From Owenia fusiformis (Eukaryota > Annelida > Polychaeta > Sabellida > Oweniidae), in contig CAIIXF020000001.1 in assembly GCA_903813345.2 (NCBI GenBank), forward strand, positions 44,843,885-44,907,884: 64,000 nt of DNA, read 5' to 3'. Both the position numbers and the translations under genes were made by a program. Shown here in pieces: positions 37,045-63,347 of this stretch. Within the stretch, counting starts at the first letter, position 1; the number at the start of each line of letters is the position of its first letter. A model generated the notes under the pieces. The model ran no database searches. It was given only the letters and a program-made list of their open reading frames with translations, and was not told where the DNA came from.

Positions 37045-37089
37045 ACCCTTATAAAAAATTCAACCTTGAAAGTCCGAATTTAAACCGTT
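37045..37089 (+). repeat. left terminal inverted repeat of the 26 kb element
   Basis: 45 bp beginning ACCCTTATAAAAAATTCAAC and ending TTTAAACCGTT. Every base matches the inverse of 63303-63347. Sequence outside the tips shows no similarity, which fixes the ends. Confidence 0.9.
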
Positions 37090-37270
37090 GCACAATCATT
37101 GTACAATCATTGATCCGATCATTTATGCAACCATGCCAACCGTTACGATGCAACCATTACAATTTTGGTTGTAAACTCATTGAAATGTTTCAATCATATG
37201 TAACCATTGTAAACGCTTGACAATTTTGGTTGCATTTCTTGCAACTGTTTCAATCGAATGCAACCCTTTA
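37090..37270. promoter_or_regulatory. left subterminal cluster of TGCAACCATT motifs
   Basis: Within 180 bases of the left tip, TGCAACCAT/TGCAACCATT occurs at about 37126 and 37149, TGTAACCATT at about 37199, and related TTGCA/CAATCATTG words fill the gaps. The right end carries the same words in inverse orientation. In other DNA transposons such mirrored subterminal clusters bind the transposase; that role here is inferred. Confidence 0.5.
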
Positions 37271-38212
37271 AAACTATGGCAATTTTATCTCAATACAACA
37301 TAAAATAATTATCTTGCTCTTTAAAAAATATATTTCAAATGTGTGTATTTCATGCATACTGTACATGTCAGAATTTAAATGGTTTGATCAAAAAGATATT
37401 TAAAGTATTGAAATAGTTAAGTAAACTTGTCTTGTGAATGAAAATATATTGAATCAATTTTCATCTAACTTTGAAGGATGGTGATTGTCTAACTCACATG
37501 TATATTATCTAGATAACAGCAATGCTTAGGCATAGCAAATCCCCCTCGCTGAAGGAAGATGTGTCTGGAAGGAAGAAATCCTTCAATGGGAAAATAATCT
37601 GTTTTGATTTGATATTTTTGATTTGATAGAGAAAATGCAATCAGACATTACAGGATGTGTTTTAAATAATTAAGTCGATAAGCATAACTTAAAAAACTCT
37701 GATTACTACGAAGCTTTAAAAGGGACATATTTTTCAAATTAAAAAAAAATCAATTTTAATTTTTCAAATCTCAAAAAAACTTATAAAAATTCACAAAGTA
37801 CTTATATAAAATCTAAAAACTTTAATAAAACACAATTTTAGTTTTGTAATATATCAAAATATTAAATGAAAAATCGATTTTTCTGTTTTAAATCTAAAAA
37901 ACTTATAAAAATTCACAAAATACTTATCTAAAATCTAAAAACTTGAATGAAACAGGATTTGATTTTTGTAATTTCGAAATTCATTTTTCAATTTCAAAAT
38001 ATTTATGGAAAAATACCTAGATTACTTTAAAGAAATCAAATTAGTTTACAGATTTTAAAAATAGTTTTATAAAATACGATGGGACTTTTGCAATTCAAAA
38101 TATTATTTTCAAAATAATTTTCCAAAAGTATAGAATTATAAAAATAATTTTGCAAAATAAAAAATAATTTTACAAAACTAATATTGAAAATGCATAAGTA
38201 TTTTAATTTTAC

Positions 38213-38282
38213 AAAAGTCTTCTGTAAAGGAGATTTTGTAGAATCTAGATGCGGCGTGTCATGACTTATAATCGAAGAAGAA
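38213..38282 (+). promoter_or_regulatory. mirrored promoter-side block upstream of the transposase start
   Basis: AAAAGTCTTCTGTAAAGGA (38213-38231) and GGCGTGTCA (38253-38261) lie just before the transposase ATG at 38283. The same two blocks occur inverted at 59803-59842, just upstream of the HECT gene's probable 5' exon. Conservation of this pair while the arms between have drifted suggests a shared promoter or 5' UTR element. No classical TATA box stands out. Confidence 0.45.
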
Positions 38283-40150
38283 ATGGAGTCAGATCGAGAT
38301 GAATGTATAGCCACATACTTTGAAGACGGTTTTACGTACAAGGAGATCGGCATGTTGTTAAAGTTCCGTCATGGAATTACACTTTCGGAGAGACAGATCA
38401 AGAGGGATTTAAAGAAGATGGGGCTCTCAAGAAAATTCGATAAAACTGCCATTGGCACAGTTGCTGACGCTATCATTCAAGAGATAGATCATGGCAGTGG
38501 GTCAGCAATGGGATACCGGAGTATGCATGGCAAAATCACAAAAGTCCATGGGTAAGTCAATTGATTGATCAATCTCCACAATTTTACCATCGGGGAAGTA
38601 TCAATGTCCTGATTCCGGAATCGAGAATAGTATCTGGTACCCCGAATCCCGATTGTAAAATTGTGGAGATTGGATTTGAAAAATCAGCCCCACATTTATG
38701 AGGTACATGTATGGGAAGGCATAGGCTGGAATGTGATTCCGCCAATCAGATCACTTTAAGGCCAGCAACTATTCTGCCGTCAACTGAATACTTTTCTTGA
38801 AAATACCTACTGTATGCTGCCCATCAAGTCAGTTCAACATACACCAGTACTCAATACATGTTACCTAGGTCATCTCAGTACCTGTACCTGTCGCTTAGTT
38901 TTCATTGAAGGCAAACTCAATTATTAAAAAGATGTCATCATGACGTTTGAAACCGTTGCCACTTGTGGCATAAGTTAAAAAAGTTGTGTCGTATCTTAAT
39001 CTCAGTACATGTATTTTCCCCTTTTTGGTCCTCGTCATCTCATTTTCTGGTATATGTCACCTCAGAGTGCTGTTGTTTCATTTTCTGTTACCCATCAATT
39101 CAGTTGTTCCCGTCAACTCAGTTTTGTACCTGTCATCCCGCCCAATAAGATACTCATAAAGTTCTTTACCATTATACTGTATTTCACTATTTTATCTCCC
39201 CTTTTTCTGGCATAAAATAAAGTATGACAGCTTTTGTGAATTGCAGGCTGAAAACAGATCATGAAACAATTCGCCGTTTGCTCTCAGTTCTTGACCCAGA
39301 AGGTGTACACAAACGATCAACGAGACGCTTACAAAGGCGACAATATACATCTGAAGGGAGCAACTATATATGGCATATTGATGGCTGGGATAAACTAACT
39401 CCATATGGTTTAACTGTCCATGGATGCTTGGATGGATTCAGTAGAAGAATATTGTGGCTCAAAGCAGGATCTTCAAATAAAAACTCTATGTTAATTTGCA
39501 AATACTTTTGCGATTGTGTTAAAAATGTAAATGGTATTCCAAAGATTGTTCGCGCAGATCGGGGGACTGAGAATGTCAAGGTTGAACTGCTTCAAACTGT
39601 TCTACGCTCTGTAAATGATGACTGTTCATGTAAAGTTGCATTTCTGTATGGAAAATCAACTGCAAACCAGAGAATAGAAAGTTTCTGGAGTAAATTTCCA
39701 ATATATGGAGCAGCAATGTGGATATCTCACTGCCGCCAGCTGTTAGATGTTGGCATTATTGACAATTCAAACATACTAGACATTGAGTGTATGAGATATT
39801 GTTACATGGATCTACTGCAAAGAGAACTTGACACAACGCAAAGAATGTGGAATACACACCATATTCAAAAATCAAAATCTGTCAGTTCAGTTAATGGGAA
39901 ACCAGATATTCTGTACTTTGCCCCTGAAGAATTTGGACATAAGGATGTGTTGCAAAAGATTGACCAAGAAATATTTGCTCAGTTAGAATCTGACAATACT
40001 TGTGTTGTAGAAACTAACAAGGAACACTTCAAAGAATTATTCCAAATGCTTATGGAGGAAAGTGGAAAATCAACCCCTAACACATTAGAGGAGGCAAGAG
40101 AGTTGCTGGTTTTTCTGTTAGATAAAATTAATCATGAACTGCAACAATAA
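38283..40150 (+). CDS. DDE integrase-type transposase of the 26 kb element, two exons, 390 aa
   Basis: Predicted to cut and join the element's ends. Exons 38283-38551 and 39247-40150 join in phase 2 (donor GG|GTAAGT, acceptor TTGCAG). Residues about 18-50 form a helix-turn-helix-like region (YKEIGMLLKF...LSERQIKRDLKKMGL), followed by GYRSMHGKI and an LDPEGVHKRSTRRLQRRQY basic linker. The RNase H-fold core has catalytic residues D135 (WHIDGWDKL), D194 (VRADRGTEN) and E234 (NQRIESFW), giving D-x58-D-x39-E. A C-terminal WNTHHI and KPDILYF block follows, as in relatives that I recall as uncharacterised integrase-core proteins of cnidarians, fish and basidiomycetes. All three acidic residues and the full frame are intact. 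The intron (38552-39246) is ordinary. Family placement (IS3EU/IS481/Ginger-like) is uncertain. Confidence 0.88.
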
Positions 40151-40626
40151 TCCATTGAATAAGCTTATTCACATCAGTAGGCTTTCAGATTTTTTGAATC
40201 AAGCCTGAAGTGTTGATGTTTTACAATTCTGTATAATTTGGTCGTAAAGCTGTTAATTGTAATGATTTTTCAAGTGGTTGGAAGTTTTCAGGTAGTTTGT
40301 CGGTGCAAGGGTTTTTTCAAAATATCACCAAATGGCTAACTCCTACTTTGAATTGCAATTCTTTCATTTCTATGTCAGTGCATCCATCTGTTTTTTTGTT
40401 GAAAATACAAGAGGTGAGTGAGTGAACAGCCAATTTGAAATTGTTAAATGGATGTTATAAAAAATGACTTTGGGTGCATTAGACTAGTATTATGCAATGC
40501 AATTATATGAAATACTGTGTAATTAGCTGGAATTGGACACCTTTCCTTGCATAACATGAGCTCCTCTTTCGGTGGGATAATAATCGTATTGAATATATTG
40601 ATAATGTTCATTCATTTCCAGTTTTT

Positions 40627-41153
40627 ATGTCACCACCAAAAGTGGTGACATATTGTTATGGTCTCGTGGTCTGTTTTTTGTTACGGCGGTTGGTGTCTGG
40701 TATCTGGTCTGTAACAAATTCTTACAACTTTCAATAACTTTACAAATACTGTTTAGACTGACTTCAATTTTTTTCTGAAGCATCTACAAGGTCTTAGAAG
40801 TGCATATCTGACTTAAAATATGAGATTTGACCTTCAATGACCTTCTCAAGATCAACAAAAAAAGGTCAAAAAGGTCTTTTTTCAACTTGCTTCAAATTGA
40901 CAAAATTTTTTTCCAAATCATCTACAAGTTCTCAGGAATTCAAATCTGACTTTAGATTTACGATTTGACCTTTAATGACCTTCTCAAGGTCAAAACGGTC
41001 TTTTTTACTCTGCTTCAAATTGCACAATTTTTTTTTCAAAATCATCTACAAGTTTTCTGAAGTTCAAATCAGACTTTAGATTTAAGGTTTGACGTGCTTT
41101 AAATTGACCAAATTGTTTTAGGTGGTGACATTTTGTCATGTTAATGCCTTGTT
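40627..41153 (+). repeat. GTCACCACC repeat, fullest copy
   Basis: It starts with a small hairpin (ATGTCACCACC...GGTGGTGACATA-like), then ATTGTTATGGTCTC and a GGTTGGTGTCTGGTATCTG block. About three diverged internal units of about 110 bp follow, each with CATCTACAAG, TTTGACCTT and AAGGTCA words. It ends GGTGGTGACATTTTGTCATG plus TTAATGCCTTGTT. Other copies are at 25298, 45012, 47787, 51497 and 53748. No reading frame is kept among copies. It behaves like a non-autonomous element of unknown class. Confidence 0.65.
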
Positions 41154-41217
41154 CTTATTCCAGTCTATTGGGATGCACTGGAGTTTTACTTTTCCACTGT
41201 GGCCACCCTGTACAATA

Positions 41218-41710: not shown

Positions 41711-42711
41711 TATGCCATTATACTTGTGGGACAAATAAAATGAAATAAAAACACTTAGCATTTTAGTATCTCATTATATTTCTCATAACTAATATTACAC
41801 AGAATAAGGTATTTCTGAATTATACACACCAAGATGCACTAGGACTCAGTATTCCTTAAAAAGTAACATCATTATTTAATTCTTTGCAACTGCAAATATT
41901 GTTCTTCTTCGTTCTTTGGGATAATGAATGCATCTTAAGAAATTTAACTTATAAACTAAAAAGTACTTGTTATTTTGATACAAGTGTCAGATACTCTAGT
42001 TTACAATTATAAATCAGAGATTTAAAGAAAATTTGCTTCATTCTTTCTAAATATGGTATAAAAATGACATGGTATAATGATGTTTGGCATGTTCAAAATA
42101 TTGGCAATATTTTACATGCTTCGAAGAGTAATTCTTAACATGATGTAACAGCAATCAATTTACAACAGATAAACTTCAGCTTAAATTATGCACAAATCAA
42201 GTACTGAACCGATTTCTTAATTGGCAATACAACTTACAGAAATCTCCACATTCTATCCACAATTCACACTTACATGTAAATTCACATTTTCAGCATCTAG
42301 TAGTATTACATCACACAATCCATAGCAACAATAATCAACATCTTAAATTATTCAGGAATGTATATGATATACCTAATAACAGCTCTCACACAGTCATCAA
42401 AATTTAGTAATCAAAGTTTGTATAGAATCGTCTAATTGTTAATACTAAGTACTGTACAGGAACACTTAAAAATATCTTAAAACAAACTTTCTCAAGTACC
42501 TTTTTCATAGGCAAGCTAATGCTATAGGTATATTGATCATGACTAAATAAATATTTTTAAAAAGCTTTCAGAATCAGACTACAAGTGGTCCCACAATGTG
42601 TTGGACATGCATCCATTTTAGCTATAAAAATAGCAATCACATTTGAGTATTCATAGTCAATAACATATGTCACAATTTTGATTGCATTTCTCTTCTTAGG
42701 AATGATAAATA

Positions 42712-43317
42712 CAGGGCGACTCAAAAAAAATGACACCCACCTTTCGTTGCATAACTTGTTGGTCTATGGTCATACAGACTTGTCATTTAGCACATTTAAA
42801 GAAGACATAATGTGTAAAGACCTCAAGACATTTCAGATGTGTAGCTCAAATGGATCAAATTTTATGAGCGTTACAAGATTTGTTCCATATGACATATATG
42901 ACGTACATTCCTTTGTAGGCGAACATGAATTCTACAGGCAAAGTTGTTGATTACCCTTACACATTGAGATATGGCCCTGATCTTCCTTGTAATTTCTCTC
43001 TTTAAGTCAGCTGTTTTGGGGATGTTTTGTCTCATACATATGGTCCTTTAAATACCCCGAGGTAAAAATTTGGTGGGTTAATATCAGGGGAATGGGGTGC
43101 CCACTCAATCTCAGATCTGCGGCTAATGAGAAAGTCTCCAAAGTGAGAATTTATTGTAATGCTCATAAAATTTAAACCACTTGAGCTACATATCTGAAAT
43201 TTCTCGAGGTGCTTACGCATTATGTCTACTTCAAATGTGCTAAAGGACAAGTCTATATGGTAATGGACAAATAAATTATGCAGCATAAGGTGGGTGTCAT
43301 TTTTTGCGTCACCCTTG
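42712..43317 (-). mobile_element. internally deleted mariner-like element, second family
   Basis: The ends CAGGGCGACTCAAAAAAAAT and its imperfect inverse (ending at 43317) are flanked by TA (42710-42711, 43318-43319). Inverted similarity extends well over 100 bp. The minus strand near 43035-43135 retains the C-terminal transposase words EIEWAPHSPDINPPNFYLG, close to the family's WPPHSPDLNPLDFFLWG. The element is 606 bp and cannot encode a whole transposase. Its tips differ from those at 14164-15221. Confidence 0.75.
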
Positions 43318-43677
43318 TACATGATGAACGTCATCCAAATATATCCTATTTTAAGAAAATACACAAATAAACAATGTTTGGTCATCAACTGTTTCAATTT
43401 TGCTGGAGTTCTAATGAGATTGTGTGAGACTGGACCCAAAGCTATCCTATTTACACTGTAGAACTACTCCATAGTCAACTTTATTAGACCACAAGAATAA
43501 TATTACGTCATAGTCAGTGCTCTCTCATGTTAAATCTTTTTGACACTATGCCTGACACATATTCACTGTACCCTCCACTGTCCACTATTCACAAAACAGC
43601 CCCATTTTAATCCACTATGTTATAGAAGCGTCTGCAGTCTCCTTTGCCTTCAAACTAATCATCAAACTAGACAACAC

Positions 43678-44339
43678 TGAGCAACGCCGAAGCGTAGCAA
43701 ATCCCATCGAACAGCCATTTTACAAAATCCTTCTTCTTTTTCAGTTATAGCAAAAATTCATCATTTTAAAAATGGTCGCTCACTAGCCAAGAGTAATATA
43801 TGTTTCTAAGTAGGCACATATACAATTTCAGCAAAATCACACACACAAACATGTAAATGGTGGCCATTTTTCAAAATGGCTGCCTACTACCTAAAGTGTC
43901 ATAAAACAGTGTGCCATGCTTATGAGTATTCACATATCAAATATGAACAAAATCGCTCCACTACTTTTGAAGTTACAGCAAAAATTGTAAAGTAGCGTGT
44001 AAAAGCCGCCATTTTTCAAGATGGCTGCCATGTGTTTCTTAAATATCTACATTTCTTGCTTTATCAATGTCCTATATAATTTTTTTACATTTTAAACACA
44101 TTGCTATTACAGTTTTATATATTGTACCTAAATTACTGTAAAATCGGCACTAAAATGACCGCCATTTTGAAACGAGTGGCCATTTTGAAAATCGGCTTTC
44201 GAGCAGAACTTCTACTCTCAAAACAAAATCGGGCAAACGGTATTTGAGTTATCCCCCGGACAGACGGATGTACGGAAGGAAGGACGTACGGACGGAGGCG
44301 TTCCCTATATCCCTCCGAACTTCGTTCGATGGGATAATT
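43678..44339. repeat. GGAC-type dispersed repeat, copy 2
   Basis: The left end has GCAACGCCGAAGCGTAGCAA and ATCCCATCGAAC; the right end has CTCCGAACTTCGTTCGATGG and GATAATT. It carries one internal unit with GGCCATTTTTCAAAATGGC and a short, impure GGAC tract (about 44258-44296). It lies just downstream of the HECT gene's stop. Confidence 0.65.
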
Positions 44340-44472: not shown

Positions 44473-47400
44473 TTAATGTTTGCCAAAGTACTTATTACTA
44501 AATGCATAATCAAATTTTGCAAATACACTATCTTGTTTGATCCCATCATAATATGGAAGGCGGAAAGTATTTGTGCATGTAGAAGATGTTGGGATATCAT
44601 CATTGTTGTCATAGAATTCAATGGTTAATCCCGGGTCGAACCCTGTTATGGGTTCCGTTTCAGAGCCTGTTATGAATTTAAGTATCATTGGGATATCAAC
44701 TGGCCTGTTGCCATCTGAAAATACAAAATATGAAAAGTGAAACACATGTTTATTTTCATTCCAAAAGAGACTTACTTGTAATTCATAAGTTACTATACTA
44801 GTAGTAGCAATATTATGTGAAAAGCAAATAAAGTAAATAATTGAGTGAGTACAGTTAACCTGTATTGATAAATAGAGGACACTTTGATAATTTTGTTTAA
44901 ACGAGACCTCTTTAAAGCACTTATATTTATTCCATATACTGTAATCAGAAGATGTAAGTCAGACTTAGTGTTTTATACTTCTAATTAGCATTACTTGCGC
45001 TTGCATGTACAACAAGGCATTAACATGCAAAATGTCACCACCTGCCATTCAGCTATTTGTGATAGACACAAACTGCCGAACACTGAACACCAACCACCGA
45101 ACACCATCCACAAAAAAGTTGGAGACCATAACAATATGTCATCACTTTGGGTGCTGACATAAAAATGAAAAATAGAAGATAATTATCAAAAATTGTTATT
45201 TACGCTGTACTTCTATTAAGTATTTGTTGAACATTCGAAATATTTTCTCTTCTTTTATTTTACTGTTGGTTCCCGCTTCGGAAAACACAGGTTTTACGAG
45301 ACTCTTCAACTTGCGCATTGTCATGACTGCCTGGGTTCCTGGGCGAAGCAGATACCGCATAACGGGCTTCTTCCTTACAAGCTAAAACAAAATGATTGAA
45401 GTACAGTTAGAGGTTTCAATGAATGCAAGTGGCAAATTAATATAACATTTGGATTTGTAAGAAAAGTTTTTATCTTATGCTACAAGTGCATGCAACCATA
45501 TTGTAATATATCCTTACGATTCTCAGAAAACCCATCTGACATTGTAATCAAAGTCTAGCTACAGATGCTGCCGTTTTAACATTTTTGAGAACAAGTTCCT
45601 GAATTATTGCACAAACACACAAATACATGTAGATGAAAAAATAGATGGATTGATGGGTACTCAAATAAATGGATTGATGGGTACTCTCTCTGAACTTTGT
45701 TGGGTTTAAATATATATTTACCTCAAGCACACCATACATGTTCATTCCTCTTGAAAACTCTCGCTCTCCTCCATTTAGTTCTAAGCTTTCCTTATTTAAG
45801 AGTCTATCCATCTGCCCCTCTGCCAGGAAGTTGACAGGTGGTCCCTCAAAAAGCAATGCCATAGCTTAAATTAAAAAAAATATTTCATTTATTTTCTTCA
45901 AAGAAAACATTTATGACCCCTACATATTTTTAGCTTTCATTTGAATCTAATGGAAAGTACAAAGGCTACTTCATATCAAAGATCAGAGTGACGAAATGAC
46001 GAAAACTATTCAACTTATTTTGAAGCGGAAGTCAATACTCTAAAACGTTTTTAGAAAAGTTTTTCCATTTAAAATGTCTTTGGAAATTTGAAAATGCCTG
46101 GTGAAAAAAATTATGTCCAGCCAAAATGTCTGACAACGGATTAGTCCTTAAGGCAAGCACTGGATGGGATAATTAACTTTAGAAGCAAAAATTAAAGAGC
46201 CCATAGGCCTAATATTAGTTTAGACAGCTACTCACCAACAGCAACACCAGCAGCAAAATATCCTATGTGTTCTCTTTCACTAGTACTGATCCAGCACTCA
46301 TTGTTGATCACATTTAGGAATGGTGAATCATCGCCTTTGATGTACCTGCAATAATTTATCTTCGTGAATCTTCAATAAGTTTAAATAATGCATTATGTAC
46401 CATTCAAATGTTTGCATGAGACACCCCACAAAAGGGTAGAAAATTATCACAGTAGCATCCAAGGAGGTGGGATACTGCCATCATACTGTTTCCTGGGAGT
46501 AGGAACTTCTGAAATGTGAATTCCTCCTGGGTATTTCATGTATTTCAACTATATTTGACCAGCTATTATTGTTACCAGGATGGGGAATTTAACTCACTTG
46601 ATTGCTACATAGATGGGGAATTTGGCAGCCCATTTTCTATTTTGTTGAAATCAAGTCTCAGTAAAACCTTTAAATATTACATTATCTAATTCTATATTAC
46701 AGTATGCTCAATCCACTGTTGTTTTTCAGAAAACCCAAAACAAACAAAATAGTCTGGGAACATAACTTGTACTGGTCTCACCTCCCATATACATCTTAAT
46801 CCAAGATTTTCTTGGAGGAACATTCATACATACAGCTTTTTGTTTGACCAATTTTATATCTGCATTGAAACTGAATGAAAATCAGATATCATAAAAAATA
46901 TTATACAGTAGCAAAAAGAAACAAGACACTAGGAAAACAATACTGCACTCTTGAATAGAATAGACAGTTGTTGGAATGAAAAGTCCAAAATGGCTATATT
47001 AACATTTACTCAGAATGACCAAAAACTAATCATTACTAGACTTTCAATAAATAATTGAGCTAAAAAATTTAGGTCAAATGGTTTGGCTTGAAACATACAG
47101 ACAAGACTTTTCAGACGAGATTTTAAGAATGAAAATCCAACCCCTTATGAAAAATCTTGCAAAGGTTACAATATTAATTCCTTCATAATATTTTCACTTG
47201 CTCCAAGTTACACATACATTATATCTATTGAGAGAATATTACCTTATTAAATCTGTAAGAAGTTCTCGACGTGGCCCACCAAGATCTTTGGCATTTTCAC
47301 CATCGTACATCACCTCTATTCTCTGCCTAAAGTGTGTAGGAGGCCATGTTCGCACTTGCTCATCAAAATCATCAAAAATGATTTTCCCATCATCTCCAGT

Positions 47401-50400
47401 CAATCTAGTCACACATATTAGAGCATCTGTCTCTTTGCCTCTATCGAATCCATTGTCATCCATATTGTTCATTTCATCTCCCTTGAGAATCATGATACGG
47501 TACGATTTCAACACAATCACTGGATTTATTTCATTTTTCCTGAAATAAAGCATTATTGAATGTTATTAAAGAGATTTTGCAACTCACTTATAGCATGTTT
47601 ATTATTCCCAAATAACGTATAACTTTTGATGCGTTTTATTATGTCATCATTTATTGGGCAGCTCTATACGTCCATAAGTGTGATATTCTTACATAGACAA
47701 CGATTTATAAGAATACCACACTATGTACTTACAGACCTGCGCAATTCATGTAAATGATGACGTAATCAAACGCTTCATAAGTTATACACAAGGCATTAAC
47801 ATGACAAAATGTGACCACCTAAAAAAAGTTGGTAAATTTAAAACAAGTTGGAAGGCCTTTTTGCCCTTGAGAAGGTCAATGAAGGTCAGATCTAAAATCT
47901 TAAATCAGATTTGAGCTTCTGAGATCTTGTAGATGATTTTGAAAACAAAATTTAGTCAAATGCTGATTTTGAAAACAAAATTTAGTCAATTTGAAGCAAG
48001 TTGAAAAAAGACCTTTTTGACCTTTTTTGACCTAGAGAAGGTCATTGAAGGTCAAATCTAAAATCAGATATGAACTTCTGAGAACTTGTAGATGATTCAG
48101 AAAAAATTGAAGTCAGTCTAAACAGTACCGGAGTTTCTTGCGAATAGGCCCATGGGCGTTTATTTGAAAGAGGGGTGAATGAAAAAGTTTTTTTCCCTCT
48201 TTATAAAGGCCCATGGGCGTTTATTAAAAATGATTTCAAATAAACGCCCAGTGGGCGAATTATTCGAGAAAAGGAATGAAATTGCGAACAGTACATATGT
48301 AAGGTAATAGGTGATTACTGTCATTCTAGTACAAATAATTAATAAAAATATGACAAGAGGTTACATATTGGTCAACGTTCTTGCCCGCGTTCATGATACT
48401 AGTGCATGAGTATGAAGGACATGTGTCATATTTGCGATCTATAATATCCCTCGACATAAACGCCCACTGGCTTGGGAGAGCTATTTTCCCTCTAAATAAA
48501 CGCCCACCCCCCTTGGAAAAATGTTTTTTCCCTCTTAATAAAGGCCCATGTGCGTTTATTAAAAATTCTTTCAAATAAACGCCCAGTGCAAAATAAACGC
48601 CCGTGGGCCTATTCGCGAGAAACTCCGGTATTTGTTAAGTTATTGGAAGTTGTAAGAATCTGTTACAGACTCCAACCACCAACCGCCATCACAAAAAAAC
48701 GGAGACCATAACAATATGTCACCCCTTTTTGGTGGTGACATAATTAGACGGGAATAATATAAGTGAGTTATAAGTGAGTTGCGAAATCTCTATTATCATG
48801 GCAGTTCCATTATAGATATTATAAGAGGCAGTGAAAATGTCTTTCATCAATCATTTTATTTAAAAAATCAACAATGTTGATAGAATGACTGACCAATCAA
48901 TGTATAGTCAATCCCATGGGCTTGTTTTGTCAGCCAAAAGTGATATAATGGTCTTCTCGAAATGCTGCCTAAATATGGGTTATTGGATTTTAATCTCACC
49001 TTGACTGAAAGCACATTCACTTAACTCCTATAGATGTAAATGATGGGAACTACTGCCATTTTTATGCCCTATACTGTCAACCTGATAAACACTAACCTCA
49101 TTGTGAAACCATGGCCATAGCCACTACTAGCCAGGCATAAGGCAGGTGAGGCAACTGCCTCGCCAAAATTTAATAGAAAAATATCAATTCAGACATTTGT
49201 TTTGAATTGAAGTTGTGAAAATGAACTCTTTTTATCTTTATAGTGTTATTTCGCTAGTGCCTCAAATTTGCCTCGCCAAATAAAATTTGCCTCGTCAAAT
49301 TTAAGATCCTGGCTATGCCTCTGAAAAGCTCCAATATGTTCATCTTTTTATGTTTAAATGAGCATCATGGTTTTGTGATCATACTGTATATTAAATATAC
49401 AAAACACAAAATCCATGGTCATTCTTGCTCTGTGGGGCTTTATTTCCTCAAATATACAAACTAGAAAACAGCAACTTCACCGAGTAGCAAATCCCACCAA
49501 ACAAAACATGTCTCGATAAATAGCAGCCCTCTTGAACAGAGCTCCCTTATCCCCATGCATCAACCAGTATTTGAGTTATCTCCTGGACAAACAGATGGAC
49601 GGACGGACAGACGGCTTTCCTATATCCCCTCGAACTTTGTTCGGTGGGATAATTACCAAATATATTTCTGTCTTTAAAGGAAGTCTGCTCTACTTACATG
49701 TTGAATATAAAATCCTCCATCTCTTCTTTTGAAAGGCAATAGTCCATCCTACAAGGTAAAAAGTTATAAATGTTACTGATTGTATTGTATAGTATTCTTA
49801 TAAGACTCTAACTGTCTAATATAAGACAGTTACAATACAATGTTGTTCGAAATGCTTGTATAATGTTGTATCTTTCAAATTGTTTTCAGTACCAAGCCTA
49901 TAAGGGGACCTTTTTTGGTTAAGTCTAGGTTTGCTAAATCCATACTGAAATTACATTTTTGGTTCACCATTCTGAGCACTTTTCAAGTGATTTTGGGCAT
50001 TTTTGGGCCAAAGTTGTCAAAAGTGAACCCCCCTTGAATTTTTAAAAAGCAACCCCCCCCTTTGGCAAATCCTGGCTACGGGCCTGTACATGTATGTATA
50101 TGTGGGTTAATCTAAGGTAATGCTCATCATAAACCTACTGCCACTCATCAGAATACATGTATTTGTGGATTTGTTTTAAGTGAAGATTCATATGAGGGTC
50201 CTGTTGAGAGGTTCACTCCTAAATAATACTTTCTAATGACACTGAATGAACTTACTGTATATCACTGGCACCTTCAACTGCCTTTCTGATGGTATCCTCA
50301 TTCCTGAAAATTCAACAAATGCTTCATTAAATAACAGCTTTTCTACAACTGTTTCATTTTTTAAAAATCTTTCTAATCAAGAGATGTACACATTATGGCT

Positions 50401-53400
50401 GGATAACTGAGAGAGTCGAAGATGTGCTTGGCAAATCCAGTAAACCCAGCTTCAGGAAACCAGGTTTACTGTTTGTTTCTGTTGACACCTGTGCAAAACT
50501 GCATTCGTAATCCATACCACAATGAACAGGAGGTTAACAGTCAAACCCAGGTTTGCTAGTCCCTTATTAGATTTTCGTATCACAGACCAGGGTTCGAGGC
50601 TATTCCAGGCCATAAAATATAAAAGAATCGCTTAATCAGAAAATTGTTTGTGTTATCTACCAAGACATTAAACAAATATGAAATAGTACTTATTATGAGT
50701 GGTCTAAAATAGGCAGAGTTAGAAGACCCCTTATACTCATTCTGTCTCTATTTCTACATTAGATAATGGAAGAGGAGTCCCCTTTGCATTTGTTCGACTT
50801 CGCCTCTTAAAAGAGAGCTTTGTCTTTGGAATTTATAACAAGACTCTGCACGCAGGGGAGAAGTCGAAAAATCCCAGAATTCAAGATTGGACCCTGTTTT
50901 CATATAAAGATGACATGGTTTTTTGCAAAGGTAAATTTGGAGAGCAGCAAACCTGGTTTTGAGGGTGCAATCTATGCCAATGAGTGCTTCTGGGATAAAT
51001 GGACAAAAATTGGATGGATCAAATACTGTACGATTGAATGGACCGATTACTTTTAAAATCTTATTCAAATCTTTGCTCCTAACTATTTCTGTTAGATAAC
51101 AATGCTTTCTAATGAACTTACTGTATTTCACTGGCAGCTTCAACTGTCTTTCTGATGGTATCCCCTTTCCTGAAAATTCAAACAAATGCTTAAATATTTT
51201 CTGCCACGTTTTGTTAACATATCTACAGGTAAACTAAAATTAATTAATACTTTTTACCAATGGTTCTGGGTTTATTATTCTAGACCTGATTACTTTTGGG
51301 CATGCTTTGTAAACTGTAAGATGACTGGCTAAATGTGGAAATTTGCATTGGATTACAGATTTTTCTAGTTGATCTTACTCCATCCCATAATAATAAAGTG
51401 GCTCAGCCTGTAACACAATATACACCTGAACTGAAAACACCAAAATTAACTGAAACTTTTCACAATATTCTCTCAAAATTGCACCATCAAGTTCTAACAA
51501 GGCATTAACATGACAAAATGTCACCACCTTGTTGCTCACAATATTATGTGTTCAAGTCTTTTTGGCGGTGACTAAAAACATTCTTTTCTGTAAATGTCTG
51601 AAAAATTGGTATAACAATAAAAGAAAAAGGCAAATATGTATTCAGGCAGTTAGAGCATTTAGACATATGGAGTTCTAAGTATGGATTATTACTTTTGATA
51701 CTGCATGCGCATATAGTGCATGTATGTACTTACGATGTCGTAATGTCTGCACTCGAACCATTGAGATCCTCTTCATCAGTCATTGCTGAGCTAAAATGAA
51801 AATTTAAAGAGGTGTCATTTTTATACCAATTCTCATATTCTTTGATGTTAGGGTACTATTCTTTGTTTTATACCATTCTAAGTGTCTTCTTTGCACCTCA
51901 ATTTAATTTTCAAAAATTGGGAAAATCTAATTTAGCACTAAAATTGTCAAATTCAAGATCCACCCCTGCAAATCACTCTGTTATGTCTCTTTTGAGACTT
52001 AATATTAATGAAGAGTCTCATCTGAATTCCCCATGGAAAAAATGACTATTTTAGAGGGAATCTGCATTGGCATTAATTTTATCCATGTAGTTTTGATCAG
52101 GGAGGTGGTACTCTTTAAATTCTGAAGGATATGGAGTGAAGCATTCCACGTTTAAAATGCCTCATTCCTCATTTCTTGGATTGCTCCCATGACATATTTC
52201 CTTCATCAGAAGTTTGAAAACTGATTCCACTGAGCTTTTGGTTATGAGGATGGCCTTATGTCCTAGGGCATTTTCCCAGTGAAGGCTGTAAGAATCATCT
52301 ATCCCAGTCATGTAATTGCTACTGTGGTGCTTTCTCAGAAAATAAAATAATTGACTAAATATTGTCTGAGATTATATATGATCCTACATTGAATCACTGA
52401 CATTAGATTCCCATGGTAAAATGAAATAAATAGATAATTATATTGAATTATCAAGTCCAGAACCAATCAAATAGTAGAAGCTTTAATCTTGAGGTATTAA
52501 CTAAATAATGTTTGGGGAACATCTGTGCCAAGTTTCAAGAAGATTGGTCTAGTAGTGACATTACTTCTGGATCACCTTGTATGTTGTTATTTATAGAATA
52601 TTAATTACCTGAATGGGTAGCGAGTCTTCATCACTTCAATATCACTATTGCTGTCACTGTCACTTTCTTCATCATTCACTGGAATACACTTGCAAAAAAG
52701 TCTTATCTGTCCTGGTATTAATTTAGCATCCAGATATTTTCGTAATGAAAAAACACCATCCACTGCATCCTCTACACTTCGCCCAGTAATGTCTGTCAGT
52801 GTTAGATTATAACAGTTTACATTTCCAATCATTATATTTAGACCCTTGGGAAATAATGCAGCTTTCACCTGTTGAAGAATATCATGGTAAGAGTCTTGTG
52901 TTCCACAAGTTAGCTGAATAAAGTTTTTATCTCCTAATGGAGACTTCACTAATGTAAGCTTTGACTTTTCTGATGCGGAGGCTACATAAAGACCAAACTG
53001 TACCACTCTCGAACTTTTCAACGGTCTTCCCATTTTTTCAGTTTTGGATTGTGTGCTGCTCATCATCATCTTCAGCAACTTTTGTCGCCTATCATCTGGA
53101 AAGTAGGATACATACTTTTACCACAAAGAATAACTTATTTTAGCTTTATTAAAGGTCATTTATTCTTTACTAGTTATGAATACTATGGGGACGGTTAGGG
53201 GACAATGACCCATGAATTAAACATTAATTTACATGATCAGTTCACTTTCACAAGTAATGGTGATTTAAAGTACTGACCCTCAGAACCCTAAATACTCCAA
53301 ACTTATTGGTGCAAAATAATTCAAGTATAAAACATTAATGTTCATGACCAGTTCACTTTTGGATGCTTGTAACCTAATTCAAGTGCAGCATAATGTTTTA

Positions 53401-56400
53401 CTTATTCTCTTTATTTGATTGATATTAAGTAAATAGCAGGAGCACTTGGCCATGTAAATAGTGTTGTTGGGTTAGGTCAATATTTCACTGTTCGTCAAAA
53501 AACGTAATTGATTTAGCAAGGTTTTAACCCCCCTCCCCCTTCTCACAAAAGTCAAAATGTTGTTTCGTGTACAGTGTTAAAGAATCAAAATGTTGATTTG
53601 CATGCAGTGTACAAGTACAACCCCAGCACACAATATCTGCTTCTGCTATAAACACATATCAAATTCTCTATCATATCTGTTGTATATTAAATGATCATAC
53701 CATTGCAGAAGATGAAACTCTGAAATCAATGTCTGTCACCTAATTAAACAAGGCATTAACATGGCAAAATGTCACCACCTAAAAAATTGGTTAATTTAAA
53801 GCAAGTTGAAAAAAGACCGTTTTGACCTTGGGAAGGTCATTGAAGGTCAAATCTGAAATCTTAAGTCAGATTTGAGCTTCTGAGGTCTTGTAGATGACTT
53901 TGAAATTTTGAAGCAAGTTAAAAAAAGACCTTTTTGACATTAAGAACTTTATTGAAGGTCAAATCTCAAATCTAAAGTCAGATTTGAACTTCTGAGAACT
54001 TGTATATGATTTAGAAAACAATTTAAGTCAGTCTAAACAGTATTTGTTAAGTTATTGGAAGTTGTAAGAATCTGTTACAGACTCCAACCACCAACCGCCA
54101 TCACAAAAAAACGGAGACCATAACAATATGTCAACACTTTTTGGTGGTGTCATAACAGGGATTTACACCCTCCCCCCTTACATAATTAATTACGTTTTTT
54201 GACGCACACTGAAACATTGACCTGACCTCTTAAGCAATTTAAAGTACTCGCAACCTTGAATACTCCAAACTGGTGCAAAATACTTCTTGTATTTAAAACA
54301 TACATGATCAGTTCACTTTGGTATGCATAACAATTTTTAAATCATAGGGTTGAAGGATTGTATCAGATTAGCCATTGGTATATTCGCTAGAAAATCAACT
54401 AGTATTGATGTAATATTGTAAACATATACATGTTGGTAATAGCACAATCAGTTCAAGTTATTACCTGATTACAGCAGTAATATATTTTAAAGATCTCAAA
54501 TGAAATGATTTAAAGTAAACACTCAGAAACCTAAATACTCCATACTGGTGCAAAATAGATCACATATTTTAACATTTGTTTACATGATCAGTTCACTTTT
54601 GGAAGCATGTAATCTAATTTCAGAGCAGTTTAATGTGTTACCAATGATCATTAGTCTTATGATGGTAACAGATATCTATCATATCTGGAGCGTGTGGCAA
54701 TGTACAGAGTATCTAAGTGATGGTGAATTGAAGTACTCACAACCCTCAAGTTCCGAACTGGTGCAAAATATTTCACATCAATTTACATGATCAGTTTCCC
54801 TTTCAATATGTAACACTAGATCTGATTATATCTCTTAAACATCTCAAACATACTCAGAACCCTAAATACTCCATACTGGTGCAAAATAATTCAAATATTT
54901 AACATTAATTTACATGACCAGTTCACTTTTGGAAGCATGTAACCCAATTTCAGAGCAGCTGTTGCAGCATGTTGATAAATAGATAGCTGGAGCACATTTC
55001 TTGAATTTAACATGTAATATAAATAAGTAAGAAAATCTATTGCAAGGGCGGAATTGCTTGATTGCTATGTTATTTCAAGGATACACGTTTTTAAAAAGGG
55101 CTAACTATGCTACAGAAGCCAAATAGCTGGCAGTTGAGCCCAAGTTTTTATAGAATGAACATCAAAGTTATGAATTGATGCTATGGTATTTTATGAAATT
55201 ATAACTCAGATAGAATTTAGTTCTTTTCAAAGGATATGATATAGATTCAGTCAATGTGCACATTTAAATATAGGTCATAAGTTAGTTAGGATAAGTTAAA
55301 AAGCATTACAAAAGTCCAAACAAAGATAGAAGAATTCAAAACACAGACAAAGGAATTTACCTTGTCCCAGTTCTACTACAAGGAGACAACATAGATGGTA
55401 CAGGTAATATTACATATATGTAACACCACTTTACATGTTGATCAGTAGGTGTAATGTGATATATTTTAAACATCTCAAACACACAGATTTAAAGTACATA
55501 CTCAAAATCCTAAATACTCCATACTGGTGCAAAATATGTAATAGTCATGTAATTCAGTATTTGTTAATATGACTAGTCCACTTTCGGAAGCATGTAACCT
55601 ATTAGCCTACATGCAAGTAGAAATAATCTTGATTTACATCATTAAATATTCAAAATTCAGTCGATGTGATACCATATTGAAATCTACATGTGGTAACAAA
55701 AACAGTTAATCAACTTTCAAAATTTAATTTTCTTTGAAAATGTGACTTCTAGGTCGGGGAGATTCCCCATAGAGCCCATGTTATAAAATCACAAAAAGTG
55801 AATGATGTCTTTTCATTTAGTGGACAGATAGTGGACAGATAATATTTTGCTTTACTTGACATTTTTTTCATTTGTATAACTATCAGATACATAAGGGTTA
55901 TATGAAAATTATTCGACCAGAACAGATGGATATTTAAGTTTAAGGGCACTTTCTGCTATACCTGCCATGCTATTTACGCCGAATTAGCCACCTGGTGGTG
56001 AAACTGGTTACTAGTTATTACTACCTACTTGCATCTGGGTAATTCCAGTGCAGCATAATGTGAAACTAATACTCCATTAGTTTAATTATGGTAAATAATT
56101 ACACAGAGTACACAGCCATTTAAAAAGTACTTGAGCAAAGATGGTTCAAAGTACCCAAACCCCCAATTACTCCAAACTGGTGAATGGTGCAAAATAATAC
56201 ACTCATTTGACATTGATTATAAACAAATACTTCTATACAAATTATAAAAGTGCTACTGTTAAAAGTGTACAGTGTACCTGTATATCCAAATAAATAATAA
56301 ATACCTGAAGACACACTACCACTACTAGTGCCTGGACTGGTATTTGGTGTTGGTTGGCATTTTACACCACAGTGACAGCAAAAGTTTCCCACAGCTGGTT

Positions 56401-56422
56401 TCCCACAGCCAGTGCAAAACAT
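44473..56422 (-). CDS. HECT-type E3 ubiquitin ligase with N-terminal zinc ribbon, 11 coding exons, 592 aa
   Basis: Coding exons, in transcript order: 56422-56305, 53095-52609, 51790-51734, 51169-51122, 50303-50256, 49748-49698, 47539-47243, 46345-46236, 45864-45722, 45381-45204 and 44714-44473. Every junction has GT-AG borders and agreeing phase, and the frame ends in TAA. Residues 3-21 form a zinc ribbon (CTGC...CCHCGVKC), followed by a Ser/Thr linker, an alpha/beta region with no clear match, an acidic Ser/Asp patch, then a HECT domain from about 270. The N-lobe has IEVMYDGENAKDLGGPRREL; the C-lobe has LTIEFYD and PTSSTCTNTFRLPYY, with C559 the predicted thioester cysteine. It would pass ubiquitin from an E2 to a target. 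The C-lobe is typical in length, though the extreme C-terminus lacks a plain acidic-hydrophobic tail. Exons 4 and 5 are a tandem duplication. It is the second gene of the 26 kb transposon. Confidence 0.85.
45012..45161 (-). repeat. GTCACCACC repeat, internally deleted copy in a HECT intron
   Basis: CAAGGCATTAACATGCAAAA and GTCACCACC form the left edge, and CATAACAATATGTCATCAC and GACATAAAA the right edge, in inverse orientation to the copy at 40627. The middle units are missing. It lies in the last intron of the HECT gene. Confidence 0.6.
47787..48732 (-). repeat. GTCACCACC repeat, interrupted copy in a HECT intron
   Basis: An inverse copy starting CAAGGCATTAACATGACAAA and ending TTTTTGGTGGTGACATAA, in the intron between HECT exons 6 and 7. 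A 501-bp TA-flanked element (48128-48628) splits it. Without that insert it is about 445 bp. Confidence 0.7.
48128..48628. mobile_element. TA-flanked MITE nested in a repeat, with AATAAACGCCC motifs
   Basis: The tips CCGGAGTTTCTTGCGAATAG and CTATTCGCGAGAAACTCCGG are inverted matches with one mismatch, flanked by TA (48126-48127, 48629-48630). The sister repeat at 53748-54155 shows the empty site (AACAGTATTTGTTAAG), so the TA duplication and both borders are certain. AATAAACGCCC or its inverse recurs about ten times along the element in both orientations. Non-coding, 501 bp. Confidence 0.85.
49468..49654. repeat. GGAC-type dispersed repeat, copy 3 (short)
   Basis: The left end GAGTAGCAAATCCCACCAAA and right end CGAACTTTGTTCGGTGGGAT enclose only about 190 bases, with GGACGGACAGACGG as the tetranucleotide tract. 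It lies directly beside HECT exon 6. Confidence 0.65.
49878..50094. repeat. dispersed repeat ending in GGCTACGGGCCTG, second copy
   Basis: The right end CCTGGCTACGGGCCTG matches that at about 13,590. The left part is more decayed. It contains C- and T-rich runs and lies in the HECT intron between exons 5 and 6. Confidence 0.45.
50256..51169 (-). repeat. tandem exon duplication in the HECT gene
   Basis: The 48-bp exons at 51122-51169 and 50256-50303 encode near-identical peptides (GDTIRKTVEAASEIQ and EDTIRKAVEGASDIQ). Both begin after TTTTCAG and end before GTAAGTTCATT, and the intron sequence beyond the donors (TTAGAAAG in transcript sense) is also shared. The two are in the same phase, so either can be skipped or included without breaking the frame. 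Duplication of an exon with its flanks is the simplest explanation. Confidence 0.8.
51497..51572 (-). repeat. GTCACCACC repeat, very short copy
   Basis: CAAGGCATTAACATGACAAA and TGTCACCACC, then after about 30 bases TCTTTTTGGCGGTGACT. Only the two ends remain. It lies in the intron between HECT exons 3 and 4. Confidence 0.55.
53276..56210. repeat. array of at least seven decayed copies of a ~100-bp unit in HECT intron 1
   Basis: The unit contains ACCCTAAATACTCCATACTG, GTGCAAAATA, TTTACATGATCAGTTCACTT and GGAAGCATGTAA. Copies start near 53276, 54243, 54508, 54723, 54848, 55490 and 56140, all in the same orientation and 110-700 bases apart. The best pair (54508 and 54848) are close to identical over about 110 bp. 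The spacers are also partly alike. The array spans the whole intron between the zinc-ribbon exon and the next exon. It has no reading frame. Confidence 0.7.
53748..54155 (-). repeat. GTCACCACC repeat, intact-length inverse copy
   Basis: It starts CAAGGCATTAACATGGCAAA and TGTCACCACC and ends TTTTTGGTGGTGTCATAA, without the insertion found in the 47787 copy, and so supplies that copy's empty site. It interrupts the array of unit repeats in HECT intron 1. Confidence 0.7.
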
Positions 56423-56459
56423 GTCTGTAAAACAAAAATTTCATTAATCTGAGAATAGT

Positions 56460-57930: not shown

Positions 57931-57968
<38 letters not shown>

Positions 57969-59174: not shown

Positions 59175-59754
59175 TAAGGATATGTGTAACTACTAGACCA
59201 ATGCCATACACAAGTGAGAGGCAATGTATTTTCCATGACCATTCTCATACCAGGAGTGGAAAAATCTGACCATTGCCATACCTCAAATCATAATTTAGGG
59301 GGCATTCTCATTCCAGATCCTAAAAATTGGGTCCATTGCCATACCAAATGTCAAAAAAGGGACCCCACATGAGCCGAGGATCCCCCCCGTCAAGGTTTAT
59401 ATACAGTGAACACCCCAGGCTAGGAGCCCTGGCCCTGTGTCTAGTATTCAGTCAGTGAAACCCCTGCTCTAGCTAACCATCCCATTAAAAAAAATCAGGG
59501 TGATCAACTTTGGCCAAAAATCACTTGAACTGAGTTCTAAATTGTTGAAAAACTGCATGATTTTGAATGAATTTTTGTCCAGGCCGGTCTGAGGGGGGGT
59601 GATGCACACGTGGTTCACGTCATGTCTGGCTTTTGAATGGTTTATCTGTAAAGTGCAACATCTACGTTATTTTGAACAAACAGATTGCCTTACAAAGGTA
59701 AAATATATAAAAGATAGTCCACTAGTATAGACAACTAGGCCTACATATACTCAC

Positions 59755-59842
59755 TTTTCTGCTTGACAATTCCCGCTTCCTTCACTTCCGTTAATTTCAA
59801 CCGTGACACGCCACATAAAGTTTTCCTTTACAGAAGACTTTT
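59755..59842 (-). promoter_or_regulatory. probable promoter block and 5' UTR exon of the HECT gene
   Basis: On the minus strand, the mirrored block (AAAAGTCTTCTGTAAAGGA, then GGCGTGTCAC) at 59842-59803 is followed by GC-richer sequence and a strong donor, AAAA|GTGAGT, with exon end 59755. A matching acceptor (TTTTACAG) lies at 56425-56426, two bases before the HECT ATG at 56422. This gives a non-coding first exon and a 3.3 kb UTR intron. The same block precedes the transposase at the other end, so both genes may be switched on together. The transcription start is not defined. Confidence 0.45.
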
Positions 59843-60530
59843 AAAAAATTTCAGACTTATCTAAAAATCTGAACTGACTTATGAATTTCCAAAATCAGTT
59901 TTGCAAAAAAAAATTGCAAAAATATTTCTAAAAAATTATTATAATTTCTATAAATCATTTTACATTTACATATTTGATTTTTGAAATCCTAAAATAGAGT
60001 CTAAAGTTTTAAGGATTTTCTAAAAGTGTTTTTTTATATATATTTTGAAATTAAAAAATTAAATTTTCAAATTACAAAAGTTACTTCAATTTTTATTAAA
60101 GTTTTTGAATTTTAAATAAGTGTTTTGCGAGTTTTCAAAAGTTATTTATGATTTTAAAAAACTATTTACATTTTTATTTAAGTTTTTAAATTTTCAATAA
60201 GTATTATGTGAGTTTTTATAAGTTAATTATGATTTTAAAAAACTATTTTTATTTTTATTAAAGTTTTTAAATTTTCAATAAGTATTTTGTGAGTTTTTAA
60301 AAGTTAATTATGATTTTCAAAAATAGAAATGAAAAAATGTCCCTTTTAAAGCTTCGTAGATTACAGTTAGACTCAGTCTATCTAGTTTGATTAGAGTCTG
60401 CTTTGAAGGATGTGTCTAAAGAAACTTTATTAATCCATTAATCCATAAACAAAACAAAAATAATTTGGCAAGGCAAAACAAACCTTATTATATCAGTTTG
60501 ATTAGAGTCTGCTATAAAGGAAGCATCCTA

Positions 60531-61444
60531 CACGGGATACTAGAGTATCCGCGTATATTGAGTATGACCGGTTCTAAGCTTACGAGTGTGACCGTATTTC
60601 TGTTCCTATAAACAGACGAGGTGAGTACTTGCTTTTTATGAACACTTTCGAACGTTTTCTTTTTATCCTACTTGTTCAATGAATGATACTTGGTATACTT
60701 ATAATGCCAGGCATATCACAAGGGGCCTTAATCAAGAGAAAACGTATTAATATTAGATTGAAGCCGTAAAATCCTAGTTTCCAGCATCTTTGATCAGTTT
60801 TTGTGTAACACAACGCAACTCCGAAGAGGATGACACATCTTATGTATAATATATAGCTAGATCTACGAATTAGTCATGAATATTTTAAATAATTTAGCCT
60901 GCTCTGTCCAAATATGATACATCTTTGAATTTTTGAGAATACGAATGTCACTGGTGCTCCATTATTGGAGAATACGATTGTGAAACAATCAGTGGGCCGT
61001 GTTACACTCGTTTCCATGACATTTCACAAGCGTATCCTCTGGGAAAAGATAAATCCTTCTCTTGCTCACTCTACGGGGATCATATAAACTGAGATTTGGA
61101 GATCTTGTTCAGGTTAGCCATAAAAAGGTTTGGGATTTGTTTTTTTCTACTGTGATATTAATGATTTGGCTCTAAGGCGAGAATTTTGTACTTTCTTATT
61201 GATATTCCATTATGAACAGTTACATTGCTAAAATAGCTCATGTTTAACATTTTTTTGTTACATGACTATTAAATACAGCATAAACTATATTCAACAAACA
61301 CAATTTCAAAAAGGATAATATAGAAGTTAACCTTTATTTTCCATTTTTAAGCAGCTGTGCCTCTCATGACTTTCCAAAACAGGTCATATTCGTAGCCTAA
61401 GAACCGGTCATACTCAATATACGCGGATACTCTAGTTACCCGTG
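60531..61444. mobile_element. TIR element with 6-bp duplication and CACGGG tips, in the right arm
   Basis: The tips CACGGGATACTAGAGTATCC and GGATACTCTAGTTACCCGTG are inverted matches over about 50 bp with few differences; the TATCCGCGTATATTGAGTAT stretch just inside is exact. ATCCTA stands on both sides (60525-60530 and 61445-61450). 914 bp, no transposase frame. A 6-bp duplication is unusual; I cannot assign the superfamily. Confidence 0.7.
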
Positions 61445-63045
61445 ATCCTATGTAATTTAAATTATTCCATACACAGAACTTGATAAATAATTTGCCAAAG
61501 AAAATCTCCCATATTTTCCTCCAGATTTTTCCAAGTTTAGAGTTTTGAAAAATAAGCCCTGTTTTTGGTTTTTATTTTTTAATCATCAAAACATATCATT
61601 TAAACTGAAAACACTTTTCAGTACAAATGCTCTGCCCTAGTGAATAAAGTAAAACCATGGACTTTCAATCTATTGAATACCTTTGGTAAAACAAACTAAA
61701 TAAAAATGAAATAAAAAATTCTGAAAATATTATTTGCAGTTTCAAATACTTGCTATTTGGGATTTCTCAGCACTTATTGAAGTAATTGAATAAAGAAATA
61801 AACCCTCAAAAATCTGAAAACACTTTTTAAATTTTAACTCCCCCCCCTCTGCATGAAATAGATAATTAAAATAAATATATAGTATAACACAAGATGACAA
61901 TAGATATAACAGAAACTAGGACTATGAACCCTTTTTCTGGTCAAGCATTTTAATTAGCCGTTCAACCGTTTTAATTAGCTGTTCAACCGTTTTAATTAGC
62001 TGTTCAACCGTTTTAATTGGCTGTTCAAGCATTTTGATTTTCTTAAACCCATGAGAATATCAATATGTAGTAGGTATTGTTGTGTTGAGCATTGTTATAA
62101 AAAATATTTGCCAAGAAAGAACATGGTAATTAAATCTGTTGTGAATAATGTGTTTCACACATAATATACAGTCAATATCAAAATAGTCCTCTTGTTTGTA
62201 TTTTTTAAATTTTAGTGAGTCATACTCTTGATATTTGGTGTTAACTACACATGGATACATTTGAAGACCCATTTTGCTGGGGGGCGGGCTGACTACTGGC
62301 CTGTTCATTGTATATAAATTTGCGGGGGTCCTGAGCTAAACCCTCCGATATCAATATGTTCCCAAACCAATCTATTTGTATATCATGGGAATAGCAATAA
62401 TCCATCTACTTTGAGAAATTTTTACTGAAATTATTAATTCAGATGTTTTCCATTGAAACTGTGAAAATTAACTCTTTGGTGCCTGAATGCATTATTACTA
62501 TAAAAACATTTTCACTAAATAAAGCAATCAACTTGTGATAACATGTTTGTATTATTTTGTACATCATACCCTGCTTCTTTTGATCATACATGTATATCAG
62601 TCTAATCATGAACAAAAACAATGGTGTCTCATCTTGTGATTTTGTTAAGTTTAAAGGAAATCTTAAGATTTTCTTAACCAAATTGGAATTTTGCTCAATT
62701 CTTTTCATAATTAACATTAAAAATACATTATTTTGGCAATATCAGATAACGGGAAATAAACACTAGATATGGTACTTTTAATTGTGTAAATAATGTAAAT
62801 GACAGAGAACATAAATTATCATATGCCATTGAGTGGAAAACTAGTCTGGTATCGCATTCCTAAATCCGTACTGGAGAAAGAAACATATGAACATGAATTT
62901 AGTAATTTACTATAATAAACATGCATGTATGCTTGCAGAAAAAATATCCTAATATACTGTTGTTGAATAGAGGTAGATTCAAATCCTTACTTAAAGATAA
63001 TTTTAATTCAAGTAAAATGATAACTATTTTGGAACGATACCAATT
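61445..63045. other. right-arm sequence of the 26 kb element without a left counterpart
   Basis: Between the CACGGG element and the right subterminal motif cluster lies about 1.6 kb with no match that I could see in the left arm. It contains a 21-bp tandem (61948-62037) and a relic near 62,285-62,345 similar to 58,180-58,260. The open minus-strand frames 62060-62308 and 62439-62717 show no motif or splice support. Confidence 0.4.
61948..62037. repeat. 21-bp minisatellite
   Basis: About four copies of TTTTAATTAGCTGTTCAACC plus G, with small variants (GCCG, TTGG, AAGC). It lies in the right arm of the 26 kb element. Confidence 0.85.
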
Positions 63046-63302
63046 CAGGATGGTTGCAGGGCTTGAACTATGTAATCATTGAACAAAACATATTGCAACC
63101 ATTTACATTTCACTGTGAAATGGTTGCAGTTTACAATGGTTGCAGATTACAATGATTGTATAGAAATGGTTGCGCAGTCATTGAAAAAGAGTTGACTTTG
63201 TTTGGTTGAACGCAATGGTTGCACAATGATTGCTTATCACCGTACAATGGTTTTTCCTTTGATCTTAGTAGTTGAAACAATCAGTATTCAATGATTGATG
63301 GA
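63046..63302. promoter_or_regulatory. right subterminal cluster of AATGGTTGCA motifs
   Basis: AATGGTTGCA or a one-base variant occurs at about 63051, 63119, 63135, 63165 and 63214, with an inverse TGCAACCATT near 63094. CAATGATTG-type words lie between. The cluster ends directly at the right TIR and mirrors the left cluster at 37090-37270. These are likely recognition sites for the element's own transposase (inferred). Confidence 0.55.
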
Positions 63303-63347
63303 AACGGTTTAAATTCGGACTTTCAAGGTTGAATTTTTTATAAGGGT
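63303..63347 (-). repeat. right terminal inverted repeat of the 26 kb element
   Basis: 45 bp ending GAATTTTTTATAAGGGT, the exact inverse of 37045-37089. The identity of the two tips over 26 kb argues that the element was inserted or converted recently. Confidence 0.9.

Follow-up and report, generated by a model that had tools for sequence, protein, structure and literature searches.

A 26.3-kb candidate DNA transposon of Owenia fusiformis carrying an integrase gene and a convergent HECT-type ubiquitin ligase gene

A stretch of 64,000 nucleotides from the annelid Owenia fusiformis (assembly GCA_903813345.2, contig CAIIXF020000001.1, positions 44,843,885 to 44,907,884 of the forward strand), referred to below as the window, was analysed for the element at positions 37045–63347. 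The element is bounded by perfect 45-bp terminal inverted repeats (TIRs) lying 26.3 kb apart, which enclose an intact, spliced gene for a 390-residue DDE integrase and, convergent with it, an intact, spliced gene for a HECT-type ubiquitin ligase (Table 1). These observations, first made in an initial annotation from the sequence alone, were confirmed. The accompanying interpretation, that this is a transposon pairing an integrase with a HECT ligase, is partly supported: both genes lie inside the TIRs and a second such pair was found elsewhere, but a target-site duplication was not, nor a second copy of the tip in the window or in a viral collection. It is considered probable that the element is a DNA transposon from an animal or some other eukaryote rich in introns, that it carries an rva_4 DDE integrase, similar to those of IS3EU and GingerRoot elements, together with a convergent HECT ligase, and that it works as proposed below.

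The two TIRs are identical at 45/45 bases, and their similarity continues to approximately 70 bp at 88.6% in a BLAST alignment. When up to three mismatches were allowed, the tip's first 25 bases were located at only two sites in the window, both of them element ends, while 100 shuffles gave 0 sites. A chance origin of the TIRs was ruled out, the expected number being approximately 1e-16. Inside the TIRs, two 256-bp subterminal zones hold 11 of the 21 copies of the motif CAAYCATT present in the window (binomial p ~3e-18), and the orientation of the copies is mirrored between the zones for 10 of the 11. Two AT-rich arrays with tandem repeats lie further inward in inverted order, with 70% identity over 337 aligned bases. 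Because the TIRs, the mirrored CAAYCATT copies and the inverted arrays are common to both sides, the two ends look as if they belong to one type of element.

The two exons of the integrase gene are joined in frame through GT/AG splice sites to give an intact protein of 390 amino acids. The protein was matched to the Pfam family rva_4 (PF24764) with an E-value of 1.4e-32 and a score of 113.5 bits, compared to a curated cut-off of 26. The N-terminal part matched Clr5 above its cut-off and HTH_21 below it. The catalytic triad is formed by D135, D194 and E234, spaced by 58 and 39 residues, and the D, D and E columns do not vary when the protein is aligned with two relatives from sponge samples. 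No zinc-binding integrase family was present among the Pfam matches of the protein up to an E-value of 0.5, and an identity as Ginger1 was rejected as there was no HHCC-type match. AlphaFold models of the integrase exon had a low mean predicted local distance difference test (pLDDT) score, 35.9 for the exon alone and 41.3 with the alignment of its relatives.

The HECT gene was modelled on the minus strand, from 56422 to 44473, as seven phase-compatible exons encoding 524 amino acids, with the zinc-ribbon-like start that the initial annotation had described. Residues 402–501 matched the C-terminal part of the Pfam HECT domain (1.5e-10; 41.7 bits compared to a cut-off of 23.9). Chains of HECT domains from the PDB gave weak matches at residues 254–345 and 442–505 (best E-value 0.0023), with the middle unmatched. 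The catalytic cysteine named in the initial annotation is present, but as C491 rather than C559 in the 524-residue model; the earlier number would need approximately 68 more residues upstream, and the numbering shifts if an extra exon exists.

The second integrase/HECT pair lies on L026 (contig C78 of G249), an 8,233-bp, intron-bearing contig in a bacterial genome bin. Loci with both genes within 30 kb of each other inside matching TIRs had been suggested as something to look for in the initial annotation, and here the genes are placed tail to tail with their stop codons 185 bp apart. An intron in the L026 integrase gene divides the codon of the first catalytic aspartate (G/GTGAAT...TTTTTTCAG/AT, with strokes at the intron borders), which identifies the contig as eukaryotic. 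The HECT gene of L026 is the sole HECT match in the G249 bin and in all 311 genomes of that bacterial order. The catalytic TC and GG motifs are kept in the HECT genes of both the window and L026, and from this retention of the catalytic cysteine and the N-lobe GG motif it seems that the ligase has been kept active by selection. The presence of the pair on a second, separate fragment suggests that the partnership of integrase and ligase is real, and, since the same convergent arrangement recurs there, it is unlikely that the ligase is carried along by chance.

The collections searched for relatives were viral, prokaryotic and plasmid, so that relatives could be obtained only as mis-binned eukaryotic DNA. 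A motif scan of the prokaryote genomes gave four loci, three of which (L008, L009 and L010) encode rva_4 relatives; the fourth, L011, was not a relative and was dropped. The three are contigs of a Cycloclasticus bin (G001) from a sample of a poecilosclerid sponge, a member of a demosponge order. In a family search, strong rva_4 matches (E < 1e-20) were found in 2 of the 311 genomes, G001 and G249. At an E-value of 0.001 there were matches in 72 of the 311, with 59 above the Pfam cut-off, and the best outside G001 and G249 was 6.7e-10. The four weak matches inspected resemble bacterial IS3-type transposases. As such bacterial transposases weakly pass the Pfam cut-off, annotation by rva_4 alone mixes two groups. 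Wider bacterial samples, which may overlap, gave 1/369 matching genomes at 1e-15, 1/398, and 0/395 at 1e-12, with G249 being the match in both cases.

A small tree placed the window integrase and the eukaryotic rva_4 proteins apart from four bacterial transposases (support 1.0), with the window integrase falling outside a group formed by L009, L010 and L026 (support 0.91). The HECT partner thus occurs on two integrase branches, indicating that the pairing is either old or arose twice. Pieces of L028, a contig from a sponge bin, are closer to the window integrase, with 46% identity over the best stretch, and a BLAST match of 2.9e-10 was obtained for L029. Weak matches of the L026 HECT protein to L028 (0.042) and L030 (0.069) were taken as chance, as they sit in integrase regions. 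The bacterial bins G001 and G249 contain eukaryotic transposon contigs, partly from sponge samples (L008–L010 and L026–L030), and bin contamination of this type is a usable source of animal transposons.

Other searches gave no relatives. Among the viral contigs, a search with the integrase gave 2 stretches that fitted a pattern, one with the alignment of the integrase and its relatives gave 29 stretches and one with the 71-residue HECT end gave 15, and 0 were confirmed in each case; a motif scan of these contigs gave 7 loci and 0 relatives. The integrase gave 8 stretches and 0 confirmed among the genome contigs, and no match among the phages.

Table 1. Features of the window element and of the second integrase/HECT pair
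Sequence	Feature	Position	Strand	Remark
Window	Left TIR	37045..37089	+	45 bp
Window	Left subterminal zone	37090..37345	.	3 CAAYCATT, 3/3 on + strand
Window	AT-rich array with tandem repeats	37706..38016	+	Inverted match (70%) to 60026-60359
Window	Integrase exon 1	38283..38551	+	N-terminal helix-turn-helix/Clr5-like region
Window	Integrase exon 2	39247..40150	+	rva_4 catalytic core D135 D194 E234, C-terminal tail, stop
Window	HECT gene exon 7	44473..44714	-	C-lobe with catalytic C491 (STCTNTFRLP), stop
Window	HECT gene exon 6	45204..45381	-	
Window	HECT gene exon 5	45722..45864	-	
Window	HECT gene exon 4	46236..46345	-	
Window	HECT gene exon 3	47243..47539	-	HECT N-lobe start (GGPRRE)
Window	HECT gene exon 2	52609..53095	-	N-terminal domain without Pfam match
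Window	HECT gene exon 1	56305..56422	-	ATG and four-cysteine zinc-ribbon-like start
Window	AT-rich array with tandem repeats	60026..60359	-	Inverted match to 37706-38016
Window	Right subterminal zone	63047..63302	.	8 CAAYCATT, 7/8 on - strand
Window	Right TIR	63303..63347	-	45 bp, identical to left
L026	HECT protein exon	2123-3235	+	1.5e-6, above cut-off
L026	rva_4 integrase	4248-3427	-	1.4e-75

The element had been called giant; 2,748 of its 26,303 bases are coding. Of the remainder, 5,549 non-coding bases fall within stretches that occur repeatedly in the window, and given the small coding share and the repeat content the size is made up mostly of introns and nested repeats. The tblastn search detected one intact copy each of the integrase and the HECT gene between the ends, with 4,322 bp separating the two. 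The initial annotation had found no other genes. The open reading frames (ORFs) overlapping the element comprise 132 stop-to-stop frames of at least 50 amino acids; seven larger ones outside the exons were compared with Pfam and none reached a cut-off, which agrees with that statement but leaves room for a short or divergent third gene.

Several repeats were observed within the element. Inverted pieces at 42657–42950 and 43032–43463 match at 83% over 164 bp, and one frame there ends in a motif like that of mariner transposases; it has no Pfam match and is probably a nested relic. Two repeat families lie in introns and gaps of the element, one at 40598–41153, 47779–48743 and 53745–54155 and the other at 53261–55601, both with several copies inside the element and no match in the rest of the window. 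At 11592–12463, beyond the element, lies a 146-bp tandem array, to which a relative within the element (43849–44338) is approximately 84% identical. Elsewhere in the window, the minus strand at 19827–21044 contains an uninterrupted frame of 405 amino acids that Pfam assigns to the triose-phosphate transporters (TPT, 7e-17). It appears to be a host gene without introns and is presumably similar to a GDP-fucose transporter.

The proposed working of the element is as follows. The integrase, using its N-terminal helix-turn-helix region, would attach to the 45-bp TIRs and to the CAAYCATT repeats mirrored in the subterminal zones, then cut the ends and insert the element at another site. The ligase, produced from the opposite strand, would tag a protein and thereby help the element to survive or spread. 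We infer the cut-and-paste movement, the role of CAAYCATT, and the activity and target of the ligase from the domains and repeats described above. The most likely target would be a protein of the host by which transposition is silenced or blocked; the second candidate is the integrase itself. In this latter case the element would be the same, and the ligase would limit the level of its own integrase, keeping the rate of transposition tolerable. Two known cases lend this some weight: the available text on Helitron deubiquitinases shows that ubiquitin matters for transposition proteins (PMC9741609), and the integrase of human immunodeficiency virus 1 is described, in the available text of PMC6389893, as degraded by TRIM33. 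The convergent layout of the genes, however, favours neither target, and self-limitation is judged to be rather unlikely, though it is the best placed of the alternatives.

Several results weigh against the reading of the element as a transposon that pairs an integrase with a ligase. A target-site duplication of 2–12 bp was looked for at the element ends and none was found, and shifting the boundaries by up to 6 bases gave neither an exact match of at least 5 bp nor a one-mismatch match of at least 6 bp. This absence does not come from poor detectability, since elsewhere in the window a fold-back element (3205–5798) is flanked by a perfect 8-bp duplication, GTTTTCAT. The arms of the fold-back element pair 3205–3402 with 5601–5798 and 4410–4941 with 5074–5605, at 99.0% and 99.4% identity, the left arm being split by approximately 1 kb (3403–4409). 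The 26.3-kb element ends in ...GGGTA on the right and begins with AACCC on the left, so the TA..TA arrangement is present on one side only. The tip has no second copy in the window beyond the two ends (first 25 bases, at most three mismatches), and a 31-base tip gave 0 matches in the viral collection. On L026 a TIR was not identifiable, the HECT side of that contig being cut off, and the HECT proteins of the window and L026 are barely alignable (25%; BLASTP 0.19). A HECT gene was also not seen on five other rva_4 contigs of 3.4–4.2 kb (C118, C139, C127 and C133 of G001 and C103 of G249), most of which are too short to tell, although C118 extends approximately 1 kb past the 3' end of the integrase gene.

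With no duplication and TA at one end only, either this group inserts differently or the two ends stem from different insertions. In the second case a deletion or inversion would have joined two insertions of the same family, each contributing one tip, and the 26-kb interval would be chimeric, its genes still being transposon genes. Perfect TIRs that lack a duplication and have a TA terminus at one end only are what such a joining would leave, but both ends share the mirrored motif and the inverted AT-rich arrays, and the interval holds a single intact copy of each gene. A chimeric origin is regarded as unlikely.

The possibility that the HECT gene, captured or belonging to the host, is a bystander between the tips, with the integrase alone serving the element, draws on the five rva_4 contigs that lack a HECT gene and on the loose packing of the window genes around their 4,322-bp gap. 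It is made improbable by L026, where the convergent genes are close together and the HECT gene is the only HECT match in its bin, and by the retention of the catalytic TC and GG motifs in both HECT genes. That the genes are domesticated and immobile, with the tips as relics, is highly improbable, for while no second copy was seen in the window or the viral collection and the introns hold nested repeats, neutral decay would not preserve 45/45 identical tip bases.

A broader proposal is that animal DDE transposons include an ancient lineage in which the rva_4 integrase and the HECT ligase form a standing module, with the ligase disarming a host restriction or silencing factor. The HECT genes repeated in animal genomes under names similar to G2E3, a HECT-type ligase, would then in part be transposon genes. 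This is put forward tentatively, with a chance slightly below even. If the pair is such a module, the protein targeted by the ligase would lead to a factor with which animal hosts hold DNA transposons in check, and HECT gene families already annotated could be reinterpreted as mobile genes.

According to the initial annotation, no class of transposon is known to carry a HECT ligase, and among openly licensed PubMed Central papers no description of such a transposon was found, nor any paper that treats IS3EU together with HECT. Transposons with deubiquitinases (PMC9741609) and DNA-demethylating enzymes (PMC12730594) are already described in the available text of two papers.

Ginger1 and Ginger2 are similar to the window element in having a DDE transposase of the integrase type; Ginger1 contains an HHCC domain, and the duplications of Ginger1 and Ginger2 are 4–5 bp. 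The available text of PMC10045372 places these two apart from IS3EU and GingerRoot, which by checkable features are the nearest described superfamilies to the window element, the comparison being one of features. The shared features are an integrase-type DDE transposase without HHCC, long TIRs, and a first aspartate 100–300 residues from the N-terminus after a helix-turn-helix, which here is D135. IS3EU elements, as far as the same text describes them, have TA..TA termini and usually 6-bp duplications, whereas the window element has TA at one end only and lacks a 6-bp duplication (PMC10045372). As the element departs from IS3EU in these two defining features, it was not assigned to either superfamily.

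Three further systems offer partial parallels, each judged from the available text of its source. In the Cottus fishes, unclassified repeat candidates include at least one with a BLASTX match to the ubiquitin ligase G2E3; that text gives no structure and does not present them as an integrase-bearing transposon (PMC5638112). Helitrons carry VTD or OTU deubiquitinase domains, which are proposed to shield transposition proteins from degradation, and so resemble the window element as transposons with an enzyme of the ubiquitin system; they differ in that ubiquitin is removed rather than attached and in being rolling-circle elements (PMC9741609). The TET-carrying IS3EU elements of fungi have an alpha-kinase gene opposite the transposase in all families, and share with the window element TIRs longer than 30 bp and a transposase placed in opposite orientation to a protein-modifying enzyme. 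The cargo of these fungal elements is a kinase and a TET dioxygenase instead of a ubiquitin ligase, and they make 6-bp duplications (PMC12730594).

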